The notes under the pieces: model-generated
The model's database searches: none
Told to the model about the DNA's origin: nothing
What the model saw: the letters and a program-made list of their open reading frames with translations, nothing else
Source: Actinomycetota bacterium
GTDB taxonomy: Bacteria > Actinomycetota > Acidimicrobiia > Acidimicrobiales > CAIXPF01
Direction of reading: 5' to 3'
Length of the DNA stretch: 58,512 bases
NCBI GenBank assembly: GCA_016870475.1
Contig: VGBO01000008.1
Location: forward strand, 1-58,512
Shown: in pieces, positions 24,044 through 30,170 of the stretch
How the letters are laid out: each line of letters starts with the position of its first letter
Numbering within the stretch: position 1 is the stretch's first letter
Program-made: the position numbers and the translations under genes

Positions 24044-24334
24044 GTGCCCGCGGAGACCCATATCGAGCAAGGACCGATCTCGCGTGACGAGGTCCTGACG
24101 CTCGTGCGCGACCGTCTCGCCGACATCCTCGAGATCGACGCCGCCGGGATCAAGGAGGGCGACTCCTTCAAGGACGATCTCGACGCCGACTCGCTCGCAC
24201 TCATCGAGCTGGTCGAGGCGATCGAGGAGGAACTCGGCGAACGCTCCGTCGGCTTCCGCATCGAGGACGACGACCTCGAGGACCTGAAGACGGTCCGCGA
24301 TGCCGTCGACTACGTTGTCGGCCGCGTCGGCTGA
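24044..24334 (+). CDS. acpP: Acyl carrier protein
   Basis: Acidic 96-residue carrier with the phosphopantetheine attachment Ser50 in DLDADSLALIELV. Helix I (VLTLVRDRLADIL) and the DxxLxxLxTVxDAV-like C-terminal helix (LEDLKTVRDAVDYV) are present. It has N- and C-terminal extensions relative to the ~78-residue E. coli ACP, including an acidic RIEDDDLED insert. GTG 24044 with CAGGAG 5-10 nt upstream. Overlaps rnc by 35 bp. Confidence 0.95.
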   Translation: MPAETHIEQGPISRDEVLTLVRDRLADILEIDAAGIKEGDSFKDDLDADSLALIELVEAIEEELGERSVGFRIEDDDLEDLKTVRDAVDYVVGRVG

Positions 24335-25049
24335 TCCCGCGACCGTCGGTGGCGACCTCGGCGGCCTCGCCCGTCGGATCGGCCACGAGTTCCGCGACCC
24401 CGACCTGCTCGTCGAGGCGGTCCGCCACCGGTCGTGGTGCGCCGAACACGGGGGCGCCGCATCCAACGAACGCCTCGAGTTCCTCGGTGACGCGGTGCTG
24501 GGGCTGGCGGTCACGGACCATGCGTTCGCCGCGCGCCCCGCTCGCTCCGAGGGGGCACTCGCCAAGATCCGGGCATCCGTCGTGAACACGGCCACCCTCG
24601 CCGTCGTTGCCGAGGAGCTCGGCATCGGCGATCACCTGTTGCTCGGACGGGGCGAGGAGACGACGGGCGGTCGCCGGAAGGCGTCGATCCTCGCCGACAC
24701 CTTCGAGGCACTGCTCGGCGCTGTGTACCTCGACGCCGGCTGGGAGACCGCCCGTCGGGTCGTCGTGGACCTGCTCGAGGACCGGATCGCCGAAGCGGCG
24801 AGCGCGCCGGGTGTCGCCGACCACAAGACGCGGTTGCAGGAGCTCGCCGCGCGTCGGTTCGGCGCGACCGTGGACTACGAGGTCGTCGACGAGGGTCCTG
24901 ATCACGAGAAGACCTTCCGGGCGGTGGTCCGTGTCGGCGAGGAGATCGTCGGCGCCGGAATCGGCCGGACCAAGAAGCAGGCGCAACAGGCTGCGGCCCG
25001 CGAGGCGTGGCATCGTCTCGTGGATCGGGAAGGGGACCACGATGCTTGA
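24300..25049 (+). CDS. rnc: Ribonuclease III
   Basis: Double-stranded RNA endonuclease for rRNA processing. The catalytic signature ERLEFLGDAVL is at 57-67, the second acidic cluster is in ADTFEALLGAVYLDAG, and the C-terminal dsRNA-binding domain begins at DHKTRLQELAARR and ends GRTKKQAQQAAAREAW. ATG 24300 gives 249 residues and a 35-bp overlap with acpP; TTG 24315 is an alternative giving a more usual length. The stop overlaps the Fpg-like start by 8 bp. Confidence 0.95.
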   Translation: MPSTTLSAASADPATVGGDLGGLARRIGHEFRDPDLLVEAVRHRSWCAEHGGAASNERLEFLGDAVLGLAVTDHAFAARPARSEGALAKIRASVVNTATLAVVAEELGIGDHLLLGRGEETTGGRRKASILADTFEALLGAVYLDAGWETARRVVVDLLEDRIAEAASAPGVADHKTRLQELAARRFGATVDYEVVDEGPDHEKTFRAVVRVGEEIVGAGIGRTKKQAQQAAAREAWHRLVDREGDHDA

Positions 25050-25854
25050 GCTGCCCGAACTCGAACTGCTGCGCCGCGAGCTCGACCGCGAGGTCGCCGG
25101 ACGGAAGATCAAGTCGATCGCGGTGGGGGAGAAGAGCGCGCTCGGATCCGGCACCGGACCCGCCGCCATGGCGTCACTCGAGGGGGCGAAGGCCACCTCG
25201 GTGGTGCGTCGTCCGGGCGTGCTCGCGATCGGTACCGACGCCGGCCGGAGGCTCGTCCTCGAGCTGCGGGGCCCCGCACCGTTCCGCCGGACCAAGGGCG
25301 ATGAGCCGACCGCGTTCACGGTGACCTTCACCCAGGGGGCGCCGTTGCGGGTGCTGAAGGGCACGGTGCGGGCGACGGTCGTTCCCGAGGAGTCCTTCGA
25401 CGCGACCCACCCCGGGCCGGGCGGCATCGACCTCGCCGAGGGTGCGGTGTCCTGGATGGTCTTCGCCCGTGCGCTCGTCGGGCGCGGCGGGTCGCTCCGT
25501 TCCCTCCTGCTCGACGACACGGTGATCGCCGGTCTCGGGCCCGTGTACGTCGACGAGATCCTCTGGCACGCCGGCCTGCGCCCCGACCGGAACGTCGACC
25601 AGTTCGGCACCCAGGAGCTCCGGCGCCTGTCGCGGGCGGTGTCGGAGGTGCTCCACGAGGCCATGAAGGCCGGCGGCACGACGACCGATGCCTACGGGTT
25701 CACCGACCTCGGCGGGAAGCCCGGTGGCTACACCGACCAGCTCGAGGTCGTGGGCCGGGTCGGCAAGCCGTGTCGACGTTGCCGCCGTGGCACGGTCGCC
25801 GTCGCGAAGATCGACGGGAAGCCAGCGACGATCTGCCCGGAGTGCCAGGTCTGA
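25042..25854 (+). CDS. Fpg/Nei-fold protein lacking key catalytic residues
   Basis: Protein of 270 residues with the whole Fpg architecture: N-terminal beta-sandwich starting MLELPELELLRREL, helix-two-turn-helix around LRSLLLDDTVIAGLGPVYVD (152-171), and a C-terminal zinc finger with CRRC (244-247) and CPEC (265-268). Position 2, the catalytic Pro of Fpg, is Leu. The beta-hairpin Lys of the RRxGK motif is Val60 (RRPGV), and the Asn of GxGN is Pro167. A normal glycosylase/AP-lyase reaction is therefore unlikely; damage or DNA binding without cleavage is a possibility. It occupies the usual actinobacterial rnc-fpg-smc locus. ATG 25042 overlaps rnc. Confidence 0.85.
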   Translation: MLELPELELLRRELDREVAGRKIKSIAVGEKSALGSGTGPAAMASLEGAKATSVVRRPGVLAIGTDAGRRLVLELRGPAPFRRTKGDEPTAFTVTFTQGAPLRVLKGTVRATVVPEESFDATHPGPGGIDLAEGAVSWMVFARALVGRGGSLRSLLLDDTVIAGLGPVYVDEILWHAGLRPDRNVDQFGTQELRRLSRAVSEVLHEAMKAGGTTTDAYGFTDLGGKPGGYTDQLEVVGRVGKPCRRCRRGTVAVAKIDGKPATICPECQV

Positions 25855-25890: not shown

Positions 25891-26619
25891 TCAGTAGCTG
25901 ACGAGGGCGACGTCGACCTCGGCGAGGTGGTGGGTCTCGTTGAGGCTGCCGAGTGCTCGCACGGTCGACCGGGCCCGAACCCGCTGCACCGACGCGTGCG
26001 CGGGCCGGAAGAACATCGCGGTGTCGAGCCCGAGGATCTCGCCGAGGTACGCGTTGATCACCCCGCCGTGGCAGGCGATGACGACGCGCCGCCCGGCGTG
26101 GAGTGAGGCGATCCCCTCGATCGCGTTGACCGTGCGGTGGCGGAACTCGTCGTAGCGCTCGGTGCCCGGGTACACGTCCCATGTGCGGTGGCGGAGCCAC
26201 CGTTCGCGAGCACCGCGGAGGGTCAGCTCGCCAAGGACCTCCATCGGGGTCCGGTCCTGGGGGAGGTCGCGGAACGTCTCGATCTCCCGGAGTTCCTCCA
26301 CGACCCGCACGTCGAGACCGTGGTGCGCGGCGATCGCACGTCCGGTGTCGTGCGCCCGGGCGAGATTCGAGCTGTACACGGCGTCGATCCGCTCGCCGGC
26401 GAGCGCGTGACCGACCGTGTCGGCCTGCCGTCGGCCGAGCGCCGACAGCGGCGGGTCCACCCAGTCGGCGATCCGCGCACCCGTCGGGTCGGGCACGTCC
26501 TGCTGGCCGTGCCGGACGAGGATCAGCTCCGTCACGTCGTCGTGCCGGGTGAGGAACGCCCGGTCGAGCGGGGACAGGGGCGGGGCAGGGACGGCGTCGT
26601 CCGAGGCGTGTGCGGACAT
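25891..26619 (-). CDS. Histidine phosphatase family protein
   Basis: Phosphoglycerate-mutase-like phosphatase of 242 residues. The catalytic RHG motif is ELILVRHGQQD (36-38); YSSNLARAHDTG, the Glu-containing REIETFRDLP and the second histidine in VIACHGGVINAY are present. Substrate unknown. ATG 26619 has GGGGGG 4-9 nt upstream, better than the ATG 18 nt further upstream. It is convergent with the Fpg-like gene (36-bp gap with a short ACCGG/CCGGT stem) and divergent from smc. Confidence 0.88.
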   Translation of the reverse strand: MSAHASDDAVPAPPLSPLDRAFLTRHDDVTELILVRHGQQDVPDPTGARIADWVDPPLSALGRRQADTVGHALAGERIDAVYSSNLARAHDTGRAIAAHHGLDVRVVEELREIETFRDLPQDRTPMEVLGELTLRGARERWLRHRTWDVYPGTERYDEFRHRTVNAIEGIASLHAGRRVVIACHGGVINAYLGEILGLDTAMFFRPAHASVQRVRARSTVRALGSLNETHHLAEVDVALVSY

Positions 26620-26681
26620 GGTCCCCCCAGCATGCACGACGCTGCGCGGCTGGGTCGCACCGGCGGGGTCGGCGGGTGGGA

Positions 26682-26705: not shown

Positions 26706-29700
26706 ATGCACCTGAAGACGCTGACCATCCGGGGCTTCAAGTCCTTCGCCGACAAGGCCGTGCTCGACCTCGAGCCGGGGATCACCGTCGTCGTCGGTCC
26801 GAACGGGTCGGGCAAGTCCAACGTGGTCGACGCGATCGCGTGGGTGCTGGGCGCGCAGGCCCCCTCCACGGTGCGGTCCCAGCGCATGGACGACGTGATC
26901 TTCGCCGGAACGGCGGCCCGTCCGGCGCTCGGTCGGGCGGAGGTGTCCCTCACGATCGACAACAGCGACGGCACCCTGCCGGTGGAGTTCACCGAGGTGA
27001 CCGTCACCCGGACGTTGTTCCGGTCGGGTGACTCGGAGTACGCCATCAACGGCGTGCCGTGTCGGCTCCTCGACGTCCAGGAACTGCTCTCCGACGTCGG
27101 GGTCGGCCGCAACCAGCACGTCATCGTCTCCCAGGGCCAGATCGACGCGATCCTCAACGCCCGGCCCGAGGAGCGTCGGGCGATCATCGAGGAGGCGGCC
27201 GGCATCCTCAAGTACCGGCGCCGCCGGGAACGCGCGGAACGACGACTCGCCTCGACCGAGGCCGACCTGCAGCGGGTCGCCGACCTGCTGCGGGAGATCC
27301 GACGCCAGCTCCGGCCCCTCGAACAGCAGGCCGAGGCCGCCCGCCGGCACGGCGCGCTCGCCGAGGAGCTCGCCACCTTGCAGCGGGCCGCGGCCGGCCA
27401 GGAGCTCGGCGGTCTCCGGAGCCGGCTCGACGCGGTCCTGCAGCGGCAGGTCGACCTCGGCCGCCGCCGGGACGACATCACGACCGAGCTCGCCGGCCTC
27501 GACGCGGCGGTCGTCGTGGCGGAGGGGGAGCTGCGGGCGCACGGCATAAGGCCCGTGGGCGATCTGATCGCCCGATTCGAGACCGCCCGGGAGCGCGCTC
27601 GCGGTCTCGCTGCGCTCGCCGGGGAGCGTCGACGTGGTCTCGAACGCGTCCTCGCCGAGCAGTCCGGCACCGAGGCGATCACCGACCTTGAGGAACAGGA
27701 ACGACGGGCGCTCGCCGATCTCGCGGAGCTCGAGGACGACCTCGGTCGCCTCGTCCCGGAGCGGGATGCCGCGGCGGCGACGGAGGCGGCGCTCGCCGAG
27801 GATCGGGCGCGCTTCGCCCGGCCCGAGGGTGACGGGCCGGACCCGCTCGTCGCGCAGGCCGTGGAGGTGCGCCGCGAGCTCACGGGGCTCCGGGCCGCCC
27901 TCGAGCGGACGACCGGCGAGCTCGGTCGGCTCGAGGACCGCCGTGGCGGCCTGGTCCGCCGTCGGGACGCCGCGCAGGACGAGGTGCGACGTCACGACGC
28001 CACCCTCGCCGGCGCCGATGCCGAGGAGATCGCTCGCCGCGACGAGCTCGGGCGAGCCGATGCCGCGCTCGCTGCAGTGGGGACCGAGGCGGACCTCGCC
28101 GCGGAGGCGCTGCGGGACGCGGAGGCGACCGATCGCGCCGCTCGCGCCCGGGCCGACGCCCTCGGCCAGGCGCTCCACGCCGCGCGCTCCCGGGCCGGCG
28201 CCGCCCGACTCGACGATCTCGACGGCGTCCTCGGGACCGTCCTCGACGCCGTCGAGGTGGACCCGGGCTGGGAGGCGGCGTTCGAGGCTGCCGTCGGTGA
28301 GGCCGTCGGCGCGATCGTGGTCCGCACCACCGACGTGGCACGACGGGGACTCGAACGTCTCGTCGCCGAGGGCGGTGCAGTGCTCGCGCCGTCCGGGGCC
28401 GACCGTGCGACGGAGCTCGACGCCGCGGTGTCGGACCTCTCGGTGCGCCGCCGCGTGCGTGCCCGCACTGCCGACGTCGAGGTCGTACTCGACCGCCTCC
28501 TCGCCGGGGCGGTCCGGGTCGACGGAGGCTGGCGCGAGGCGCTCGAGCTGGCTTCCGACCGTCCGGACCTCGTCGTCGTCACCGACGCGGGAGACCGCTT
28601 CGGCCCGACCGGCTGGCGCGTCGGTACCCGGGTCGCCGGGGTCACGGCAGCGCTCGTGGACGACGCCGAACGGGACGCCGTGGACGCCGGGACCCATGTC
28701 GAACCGGCACGTGCCCGCCTCGCTGCATCTCGCGCCGCGCTCGAGGCCGCCCGGGAGTCCCAGCGCGCCGCCGCTCGCGCCGGCGACGACCACGCGACCG
28801 CCGTTCGTGTCGCCCGGGACGCCCTCGAGCGCGCCGCCCGGTCACTCGGCGACCTCGCCGGGGAGCTCGATCAGGTCGCCACCCAGGCGCAGGCCCTCCA
28901 GGAACGGCTCGACCGGGACGCCCGGCGCATCGCCGACCTCGACGCCCGTCTTCCGGCGCTGACCGCAGCGGAGGCCGACGAGGCCGCCCGGGCCCGAGCC
29001 CGAGCCGAGACCCAGGCCGACCTCGATACCCGCTGGACGGAGGCGGGCCGCCGCCGGCGCGAGCTCGAGGTGGAGGTCGCCGCCCGGACGCAGCGTCGTG
29101 CCGCGCTCGCCGACCGGGCGGAGGACCTGCGACGCCGGGCCGAGGCGGCACGGGTCGCCTCCCTCGGACGCGACGCCGAGCGGGTGCGGGCGCGACGTTC
29201 CACGGCGGTGCTCGAAACGCTCGAGACGCGTCTCGGTGGCGTCGGGGCGTCCATCGGCGTCCAACTCGAGGCGCTCGGCGCGGAGCGTCGGCGACAGTCC
29301 GAGGCGAGTCGTCAGATCGGCGGTCGCCTCGACGATCTCCGGCGGCGGCGCGCCGATGCGGAACGAACGCTCGCGGGTACGAACGAGCTCGCATCGCGGG
29401 CCGAGATCGAGCGGGCGGAGCTCGACGTGCGGCTCGAGGCGCTGTGCGACCGGATCCGCCGGGAACTCGACTGCGAGCCGGACGCGACCCTCGACGCGCC
29501 AGCCCCCGAACTTCCCGAGGGCGTCACCGCGGCGGGACGCGCCCGCGAACTCGAGCGGGACCTGCGGCTGCTCGGTCCAGTGAACCCGCTCGCGGTCGAG
29601 GAGCACGCCGCCCTGTCGGAGCGCCACACCGTGATCGAGACGCAGCTCGAGGACGTCCGGTCGTCGCGCCGCGAGTTGCAGAAGGTGGTGCGGGCCATCG

Positions 29701-30170
29701 ACGAGGAGATCACCCGCACGTTCGCGGCTGCGTTCGCGGACGTGTCGGGTCACTTCGAGTCGCTGTTCGCCACGTTGTTCCCCGGCGGCAGCGGCACGCT
29801 GCGGCTCACCGATCCCGACGACCTGCTGCGCACCGGTGTTGACGTCGAGGCGAAGCCGTCCGGGAAGAACGTGCGGAAGCTCTCGCTTCTCTCCGGCGGC
29901 GAGCGGTCCCTGACGGCGCTCGGTCTGCTGTTAGCGATCTTCCGCAGCCGGCCGTCGCCGTTCTACGTGATGGACGAGGTCGAGGCCGCGCTCGACGACA
30001 TCAACCTTCGGCGGTTCCTCGATCTCGTCGAGGAGTTCCGCGCCGAGGCCCAGCTGATCATCGTCAGCCACCAGAAGCGGACGATGGAGGTGGCCGACTG
30101 CCTCTACGGCGTGACCATGCGGACCGGCGAGAGCTCGCGGGTCGTGTCGGAACGCTTGCGCTCCGCCTGA
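26706..30170 (+). CDS. smc: Chromosome segregation protein SMC
   Basis: Condensin ATPase organising the nucleoid, working with ScpAB. 1154 residues. Walker A GPNGSGKSNVVDAI is near residue 32. The first coiled coil is rich in Arg, Glu and Ala to about 490, the hinge lies at about 500-640 (starts near DDLDGVLGTVLDAVEVDPGW), and the second coil runs to about 960. Signature LSLLSGGERSLTALGLL is near 1058 and Walker B FYVMDEVEAALDD near 1085. The acyP gene often found here is absent. ATG 26706. Confidence 0.97.
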   Translation: MHLKTLTIRGFKSFADKAVLDLEPGITVVVGPNGSGKSNVVDAIAWVLGAQAPSTVRSQRMDDVIFAGTAARPALGRAEVSLTIDNSDGTLPVEFTEVTVTRTLFRSGDSEYAINGVPCRLLDVQELLSDVGVGRNQHVIVSQGQIDAILNARPEERRAIIEEAAGILKYRRRRERAERRLASTEADLQRVADLLREIRRQLRPLEQQAEAARRHGALAEELATLQRAAAGQELGGLRSRLDAVLQRQVDLGRRRDDITTELAGLDAAVVVAEGELRAHGIRPVGDLIARFETARERARGLAALAGERRRGLERVLAEQSGTEAITDLEEQERRALADLAELEDDLGRLVPERDAAAATEAALAEDRARFARPEGDGPDPLVAQAVEVRRELTGLRAALERTTGELGRLEDRRGGLVRRRDAAQDEVRRHDATLAGADAEEIARRDELGRADAALAAVGTEADLAAEALRDAEATDRAARARADALGQALHAARSRAGAARLDDLDGVLGTVLDAVEVDPGWEAAFEAAVGEAVGAIVVRTTDVARRGLERLVAEGGAVLAPSGADRATELDAAVSDLSVRRRVRARTADVEVVLDRLLAGAVRVDGGWREALELASDRPDLVVVTDAGDRFGPTGWRVGTRVAGVTAALVDDAERDAVDAGTHVEPARARLAASRAALEAARESQRAAARAGDDHATAVRVARDALERAARSLGDLAGELDQVATQAQALQERLDRDARRIADLDARLPALTAAEADEAARARARAETQADLDTRWTEAGRRRRELEVEVAARTQRRAALADRAEDLRRRAEAARVASLGRDAERVRARRSTAVLETLETRLGGVGASIGVQLEALGAERRRQSEASRQIGGRLDDLRRRRADAERTLAGTNELASRAEIERAELDVRLEALCDRIRRELDCEPDATLDAPAPELPEGVTAAGRARELERDLRLLGPVNPLAVEEHAALSERHTVIETQLEDVRSSRRELQKVVRAIDEEITRTFAAAFADVSGHFESLFATLFPGGSGTLRLTDPDDLLRTGVDVEAKPSGKNVRKLSLLSGGERSLTALGLLLAIFRSRPSPFYVMDEVEAALDDINLRRFLDLVEEFRAEAQLIIVSHQKRTMEVADCLYGVTMRTGESSRVVSERLRSA

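Follow-up and report, generated by a model that had tools for sequence, protein, structure and literature searches.

How does a gene that appears to lack an Fpg active site come to occupy the slot between rnc and smc, and what might its product do? An earlier note on this DNA had described a protein of the Fpg fold without its catalytic residues and had suggested a DNA-lesion reader or a structural protein rather than a glycosylase. We analyzed the gene in a window of 58,512 nucleotides (contig VGBO01000008.1, an Acidimicrobiales genome) and compared its product, here called the slot protein, with those of other genomes.

Locus, reading frame, and fold of the slot protein

The slot was checked gene by gene in this window, and synteny in other genomes was assigned by homology to rnc and smc. 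The noted place between rnc and smc was borne out, with a reverse-strand histidine phosphatase gene intervening before smc (Table 1). The translation starts MLELPELELLRREL. Because relatives share the MLELPE start and a plausible Shine-Dalgarno sequence lies 5' of it, a wrong start codon concealing a Pro was ruled out. Sequencing error, chance, and local mutation were likewise ruled out, as both the MLELPE start and the losses recur in four genomes of the same family.

The slot protein matched Pfam H2TH (PF06831) with 59.2 bits against a cut-off of 34.7 and Fapy_DNA_glyco (PF01149) with 36.5 bits against 25.5, and it fell far under the cut-offs of the NCBIfam Fpg equivalogs (136 versus 212 and 132 versus 203 bits). 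Its AlphaFold2 model, with a mean pLDDT of 95.8, matched MutM/Fpg along the whole chain in Foldseek (E value of 5e-23), and VIA-align placed 265 residues of the model on MutM with a Z score of 29. With full-length homology in both sequence and fold, and nested in canonical Fpg in trees, the slot protein belongs to the Fpg/Nei superfamily by descent.

Table 1. Features of the slot gene and its neighbors (positions in the window)
Feature	Position	Strand	Remark
rnc (RNase III)	24300..25049	+	8-nt overlap at the pseudo-Fpg start codon
Predicted pseudo-Fpg CDS	25042..25854	+	270 aa; Fpg/MutM fold without active site
Leu2, replaces catalytic Pro	25045..25047	+	Codon CTT; Leu2 in all same-family relatives having the gene (L007-L010)
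Gly59, replaces catalytic Lys57	25216..25218	+	Ungapped alignment RRPGVL / RRGKYL
Gly77, replaces intercalating Met75	25270..25272	+	
K106-G-T108, replaces Arg109-x-Phe111 intercalation loop	25357..25365	+	
Trp138	25453..25455	+	Member of a clade-specific conserved putative patch
Pro167, replaces Asn of H2TH GxGN motif	25540..25542	+	Codon CCC; GLGPVY for GxGNxY
Helix αF region, residues 183-212	25588..25677	+	E192, R194, R195, R198, K209; equally conserved in dead and catalytic slot members
C-terminal zinc finger, Cys 244, 247, 265, 268	25771..25845	+	All four Cys present; contact Arg replaced by Lys260
Histidine phosphatase gene	25891..26637	-	Separates pseudo-Fpg from smc
smc	26706..30170	+	

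Active-site and contact residues

Leu at position 2 in place of the catalytic Pro and Pro167 at the Asn position of the helix-two-turn-helix were both read correctly in the earlier note, and the conservation of Leu2 that it proposed to check extends through the family (Table 1). The catalytic Lys is indeed lost, but the residue that faces it is Gly59 and not Val60, the alignment having been one residue off. Similarly, the zinc finger and fold described as intact stand as to the four Cys and the fold but not as to the zinc-finger Arg. The losses exceed those first claimed, extending to Met75, Arg109-x-Phe111, the phosphate-contacting His, at whose position stands Glu74, and the zinc-finger Arg. 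Retained are Glu3 and Glu6 of MLELPE, the GxG-xYxDE/H2TH core, the four zinc Cys, and the fold. From these changes, we infer that the slot protein is inactive. Met-aminopeptidase does not remove a Met that precedes Leu, so Met1 should stay on the slot protein. An activity of the NEIL3 type, through a Val2 exposed by Met1 removal, would be unlikely here because Met1 is not removed and the Lys is gone.

Dead slot genes in two clades

The same rnc/smc slot was occupied in 57 of 59 genomes searched. When 20 catalytic and contact positions were scored, 35 of these slot genes were canonical, 21 were dead (13 or fewer of the 20 positions), and one was intermediate (L015; 16/20). Overall, canonical slot members scored 20/20 and dead members mostly 13/20 or lower, with a few at 14 or 15. 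In a tree from which most trait columns were excluded, the dead members (20 full-length rows) formed a clade within canonical Fpg (support of 100/98), which named relatives place in Acidimicrobiia/Acidimicrobiales, Microthrixaceae included. As judged from sequence, the rnc-smc slot of Acidimicrobiia holds an order-wide clade of predicted pseudoenzymes. Pro2 and the Lys, about which the earlier note had asked, are not kept in close relatives and do occur only in less closely related slot-family members.

In the dead clade, Pro2 was present in 26% of members, the catalytic Lys in 2%, Met75 in 0%, Arg109 in 2%, Phe111 in 0%, His74 in 12%, the H2TH Asn in 4%, and the zinc-finger Arg in 24%. The zinc Cys were gone in more than half of the Acidimicrobiia dead members. 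The dead members L030, L034, L040, L046, L048, L112, L229, and others lack two or more. Acidimicrobiia dead members without the zinc Cys retain the finger hairpin sequence and the terminal QV.

Named genomes and 296 from this phylum were scanned, and Nitriliruptoraceae, Euzebyales, and families f60, f68, f72, f83, f90, f97, and f116 also proved to have dead slot genes next to rnc. In a careful tree, these genes formed a separate clade (91/95) with canonical neighbors. Two origins were better by 44.8 log-likelihood units, and a single clade was not rejected by the AU test (p of 0.089). A single origin of all dead members is thus disfavored by the best tree, though with this AU value, and catalysis was probably lost twice, in the two separate dead clades.

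Departures from these patterns were also observed. The intermediate L015 (G010) has Pro2, the Lys, and four Cys, together with M75T, F111S, Asn-to-Ala, and zinc-finger Arg-to-Gly changes, in a genome without MutM2, the second Fpg described below. The most degraded slot gene seen, L338 (5/20), is in a small genome of 2.1 Mb without MutM2 (G124, family f83); other genomes of this family, unlike G124, do have MutM2. In G002, which belongs to the same family as the window's genome, no pseudo-Fpg was found, the histidine phosphatase gene comes immediately after rnc, and MutM2 is present. The dead protein is dispensable in this one lineage.

MutM2, a second canonical Fpg

The source genome contains five Fpg/Nei-family genes. 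Among them is the second canonical Fpg whose presence the earlier note had proposed to check: L001 on contig C76, which is fully canonical (MPELPEVE, RRGKYL, GVGN, and four Cys) and belongs to a family here termed MutM2. In the order-wide set, where an E-value gap (4e-53 to 4e-46) sets MutM2 apart, it occurred in 19 of 21 dead-slot genomes and none of the 35 canonical-slot genomes. Among named genomes, the figures were 20/23 and 0/5, and in the phylum sample, with genomes counted once only, 11/12 and 0/21. In a follow-up test, a MutM2 profile was used to choose genomes by MutM2 state before the slot gene was read, with orthology of the 40 loci to the slot gene assigned by profile match. A dead slot was found in all 28 MutM2-positive genomes and a canonical slot in 11 of 12 MutM2-negative genomes, with G124 as the exception; by slot state, MutM2 was present in 28 of 29 dead-slot genomes. 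Overall, 78 of 85 dead-slot genomes and 0 of 72 canonical-slot genomes had MutM2, counts that are not phylogenetically independent and reflect one or two independent events.

MutM2 was not detected in seven dead-slot genomes (G022, G058, G059, G066, G067, G323, and G124). Completeness is about 95% for G022 and G058 and 68% for G323, and G066 carries a further canonical-like Fpg (L182); most of the genomes were assembled from metagenomes, in which single absences carry little weight. Apparent MutM2 genes in G107 and G092, two genomes with a canonical slot gene, proved not to be of the MutM2 type. The MutM2 family is a single clade whose two halves parallel the two dead-slot clades, a pattern that fits shared ancestry and MutM2 transfer alike.

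Selection and a putative conserved patch

Dead slot genes are under purifying selection. In close pairs, dN/dS was 0.10 to 0.22 for dead genes, 0.02 to 0.19 for most canonical genes, and 0.11 to 0.14 for MutM2; the all-pairs median was discarded because dS was saturated in distant GC-rich pairs. Reading frames were intact in 50 Acidimicrobiia dead members.

Identity in the helix αF region was 0.61 in dead versus 0.64 in canonical slot members (ratio of 0.95), and the dead/canonical ratio in the intercalation and lesion-probing region was 0.53. Seven residues (K24, K50, W138, R194, R195, R198, and K209) were conserved at 0.96 to 1.00 in the Acidimicrobiia dead clade, 0.84 to 1.00 in the second dead clade, and 0.82 to 1.00 in canonical slot members. 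The corresponding values were 0 to 0.07 in MutM2, except for R195 at 0.51, and 0 to 0.19 in other actinobacterial Fpg proteins, with R195 at 0.62. R194, R195, and R198 reached at least 0.98 in both dead and live slot groups and 0.04 to 0.51 in MutM2. This putative patch was also found in slot members without MutM2, both canonical and of the Met1 type (beginning V/M-E-L-P-E; see below), and its presence in canonical members places it before the loss of catalysis. Net charge fell from +6.7 in canonical members to +0.9 in the Acidimicrobiia dead clade and -8.8 in the second dead clade, which argues against a DNA- or RNA-binding role.

Discussion

We consider it probable that the slot protein is a pseudo-glycosylase that has given up catalysis to MutM2 and kept a noncatalytic role, most likely protein binding via the αF patch. 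The slot gene would descend from the rnc-linked Fpg/MutM of Actinomycetota, with DNA cleavage lost and 8-oxoG/FapyG repair presumably taken over by MutM2 (L001 in the source genome). The ancestral slot Fpg would have been bifunctional, with a second, noncatalytic role in place before catalysis was lost, and we propose that the slot protein was retained because this role predated the loss. The role would reside on the H2TH/αF helix patch (W138, R194, R195, R198, and K209) with K24 and K50 of the N-domain, which may together form a functional surface whose ligand would be a protein and not DNA. We give even chances to the broader idea that the rnc-linked Fpg of one large actinobacterial group was bifunctional, that a second Fpg took over repair, and that catalysis was then lost, probably twice, leaving adaptors across dozens of families.

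Strong sequence support for the earlier view that the protein is no glycosylase comes from the joint, clade-wide catalytic loss, the second canonical Fpg, and purifying selection. The earlier note's suggestion of a lesion reader, which would flip or sense oxidized bases without cutting and recruit MutM2 or other repair proteins, finds support in the retained Fpg fold, H2TH, and zinc finger, as well as in published work in which NEIL3 has noncatalytic roles and mycobacterial Nei2 has roles independent of its AP lyase (PMC11323726). However, the intercalating residues have almost vanished from the dead clade, most phosphate contacts are gone, the zinc-finger Arg is uncommon, the zinc Cys are missing from over half of the Acidimicrobiia members, and net charge is down to about zero or negative. 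We therefore regard a lesion reader as unlikely and find the earlier idea better expressed as a structural or adaptor role. By analogy with NFACT-N of RqcH/NEMF, which is related to Fpg/MutM/Nei (PMC6514570), the protein could instead be an RNA- or ribosome-related factor, with its rnc linkage reflecting RNA processing; an NFACT_N match over H2TH (16.8 bits, below the cut-off of 31) and the overlap with rnc, a dsRNA nuclease gene, are consistent with this. Yet rnc-fpg linkage is common in Actinomycetota with catalytic Fpg (PMC2734929), canonical slot genes show the same 8-nt overlap, NFACT-specific domains are missing, and the acidic second clade is poorly suited to RNA binding, which together make such a factor quite unlikely.

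The nearly perfect co-occurrence with MutM2 and the mirrored clades would also fit a partner or regulator of MutM2, such as a heteromeric pseudo-subunit. This reading is quite improbable given that the patch predates MutM2, occurring as it does in slot members without it, and that either gene can be found alone, MutM2 in G002 and the dead slot in seven genomes without detected MutM2. Free drift of catalytic and zinc residues and the complete absence of the gene from G002 might suggest a decaying, functionless relic held only by translational coupling in the rnc operon. Against this very improbable outcome stand dN/dS values of about 0.1 to 0.2, intact frames over dozens of families, and a specific residue set that is almost invariant in 50 divergent sequences.

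M. tuberculosis Fpg1, which is rnc-linked, is the characterized major Fpg homolog and has conserved N-terminal catalytic residues (PMC2734929). With this protein and MutM (1r2y), the slot protein shares the full-length fold, H2TH, the four-Cys zinc finger, and the place beside rnc, and it differs from them in being without Pro2, Lys57, Met75, Arg109, Phe111, the Asn, and the zinc-finger Arg. M. tuberculosis Fpg2 (Rv0944) is likewise an actinobacterial Fpg paralog without the catalytic N terminus, but it is truncated and at another locus, whereas the slot protein is full length, is itself the rnc-slot ortholog, and is found clade-wide. NEIL3, which has been reported as a scaffold and whose activity needs Met1 removal exposing Val2, also lacks the N-terminal Pro, and mycobacterial Nei2 acts in psoralen repair independently of its AP-lyase activity (PMC11323726). 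Unlike NEIL3, the slot protein also lacks Lys57 and the lesion-contact residues and should keep Met1. NFACT-N is a distant relative of the fold tied to nonrepair work; it is not a full-length Fpg and, unlike the slot protein, sits in a multidomain ribosome-quality-control protein. A literature search, with most subscription journals outside it, found no inactive Fpg in Acidimicrobiia and no Fpg pseudoenzymes.

Annotation pipelines would tend to label the dead genes mutM/Fpg and thereby credit them with base-excision repair capacity, which would be wrong for a whole actinobacterial group. The pairing of MutM2 with a dead slot may be a natural experiment that parts catalysis from another function of a well-studied repair fold, and its analysis names surface residues for mutation. 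If live catalytic orthologs share the second function, it would add a new aspect to the biology of rnc-linked Fpg.

Several other Fpg variants were also observed. L142 encodes a slot Fpg that is canonical but for a broken zinc finger (Cys positions 2, 3, and 4 changed), and L299 and L303 (G186 and G249, family f95) encode an off-slot Fpg paralog with Pro and Lys and with altered Met, Arg/Phe, and Asn positions. In families f66, f100, and f108 (L190-L215 and L339-L341), the slot Fpg begins V/M-E-L-P-E with no Pro, the initiator Met standing at the Pro position, and has the Lys, Met75, Arg, Phe, Asn, and all Cys. In L192 and L215, a stop codon immediately precedes this start, and in G093, G134, G158, and G285, the V/M-E-L-P-E slot Fpg is the sole strong Fpg match in the genome. 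Slot Fpg proteins of this type may possibly be active via the Met1 amine.
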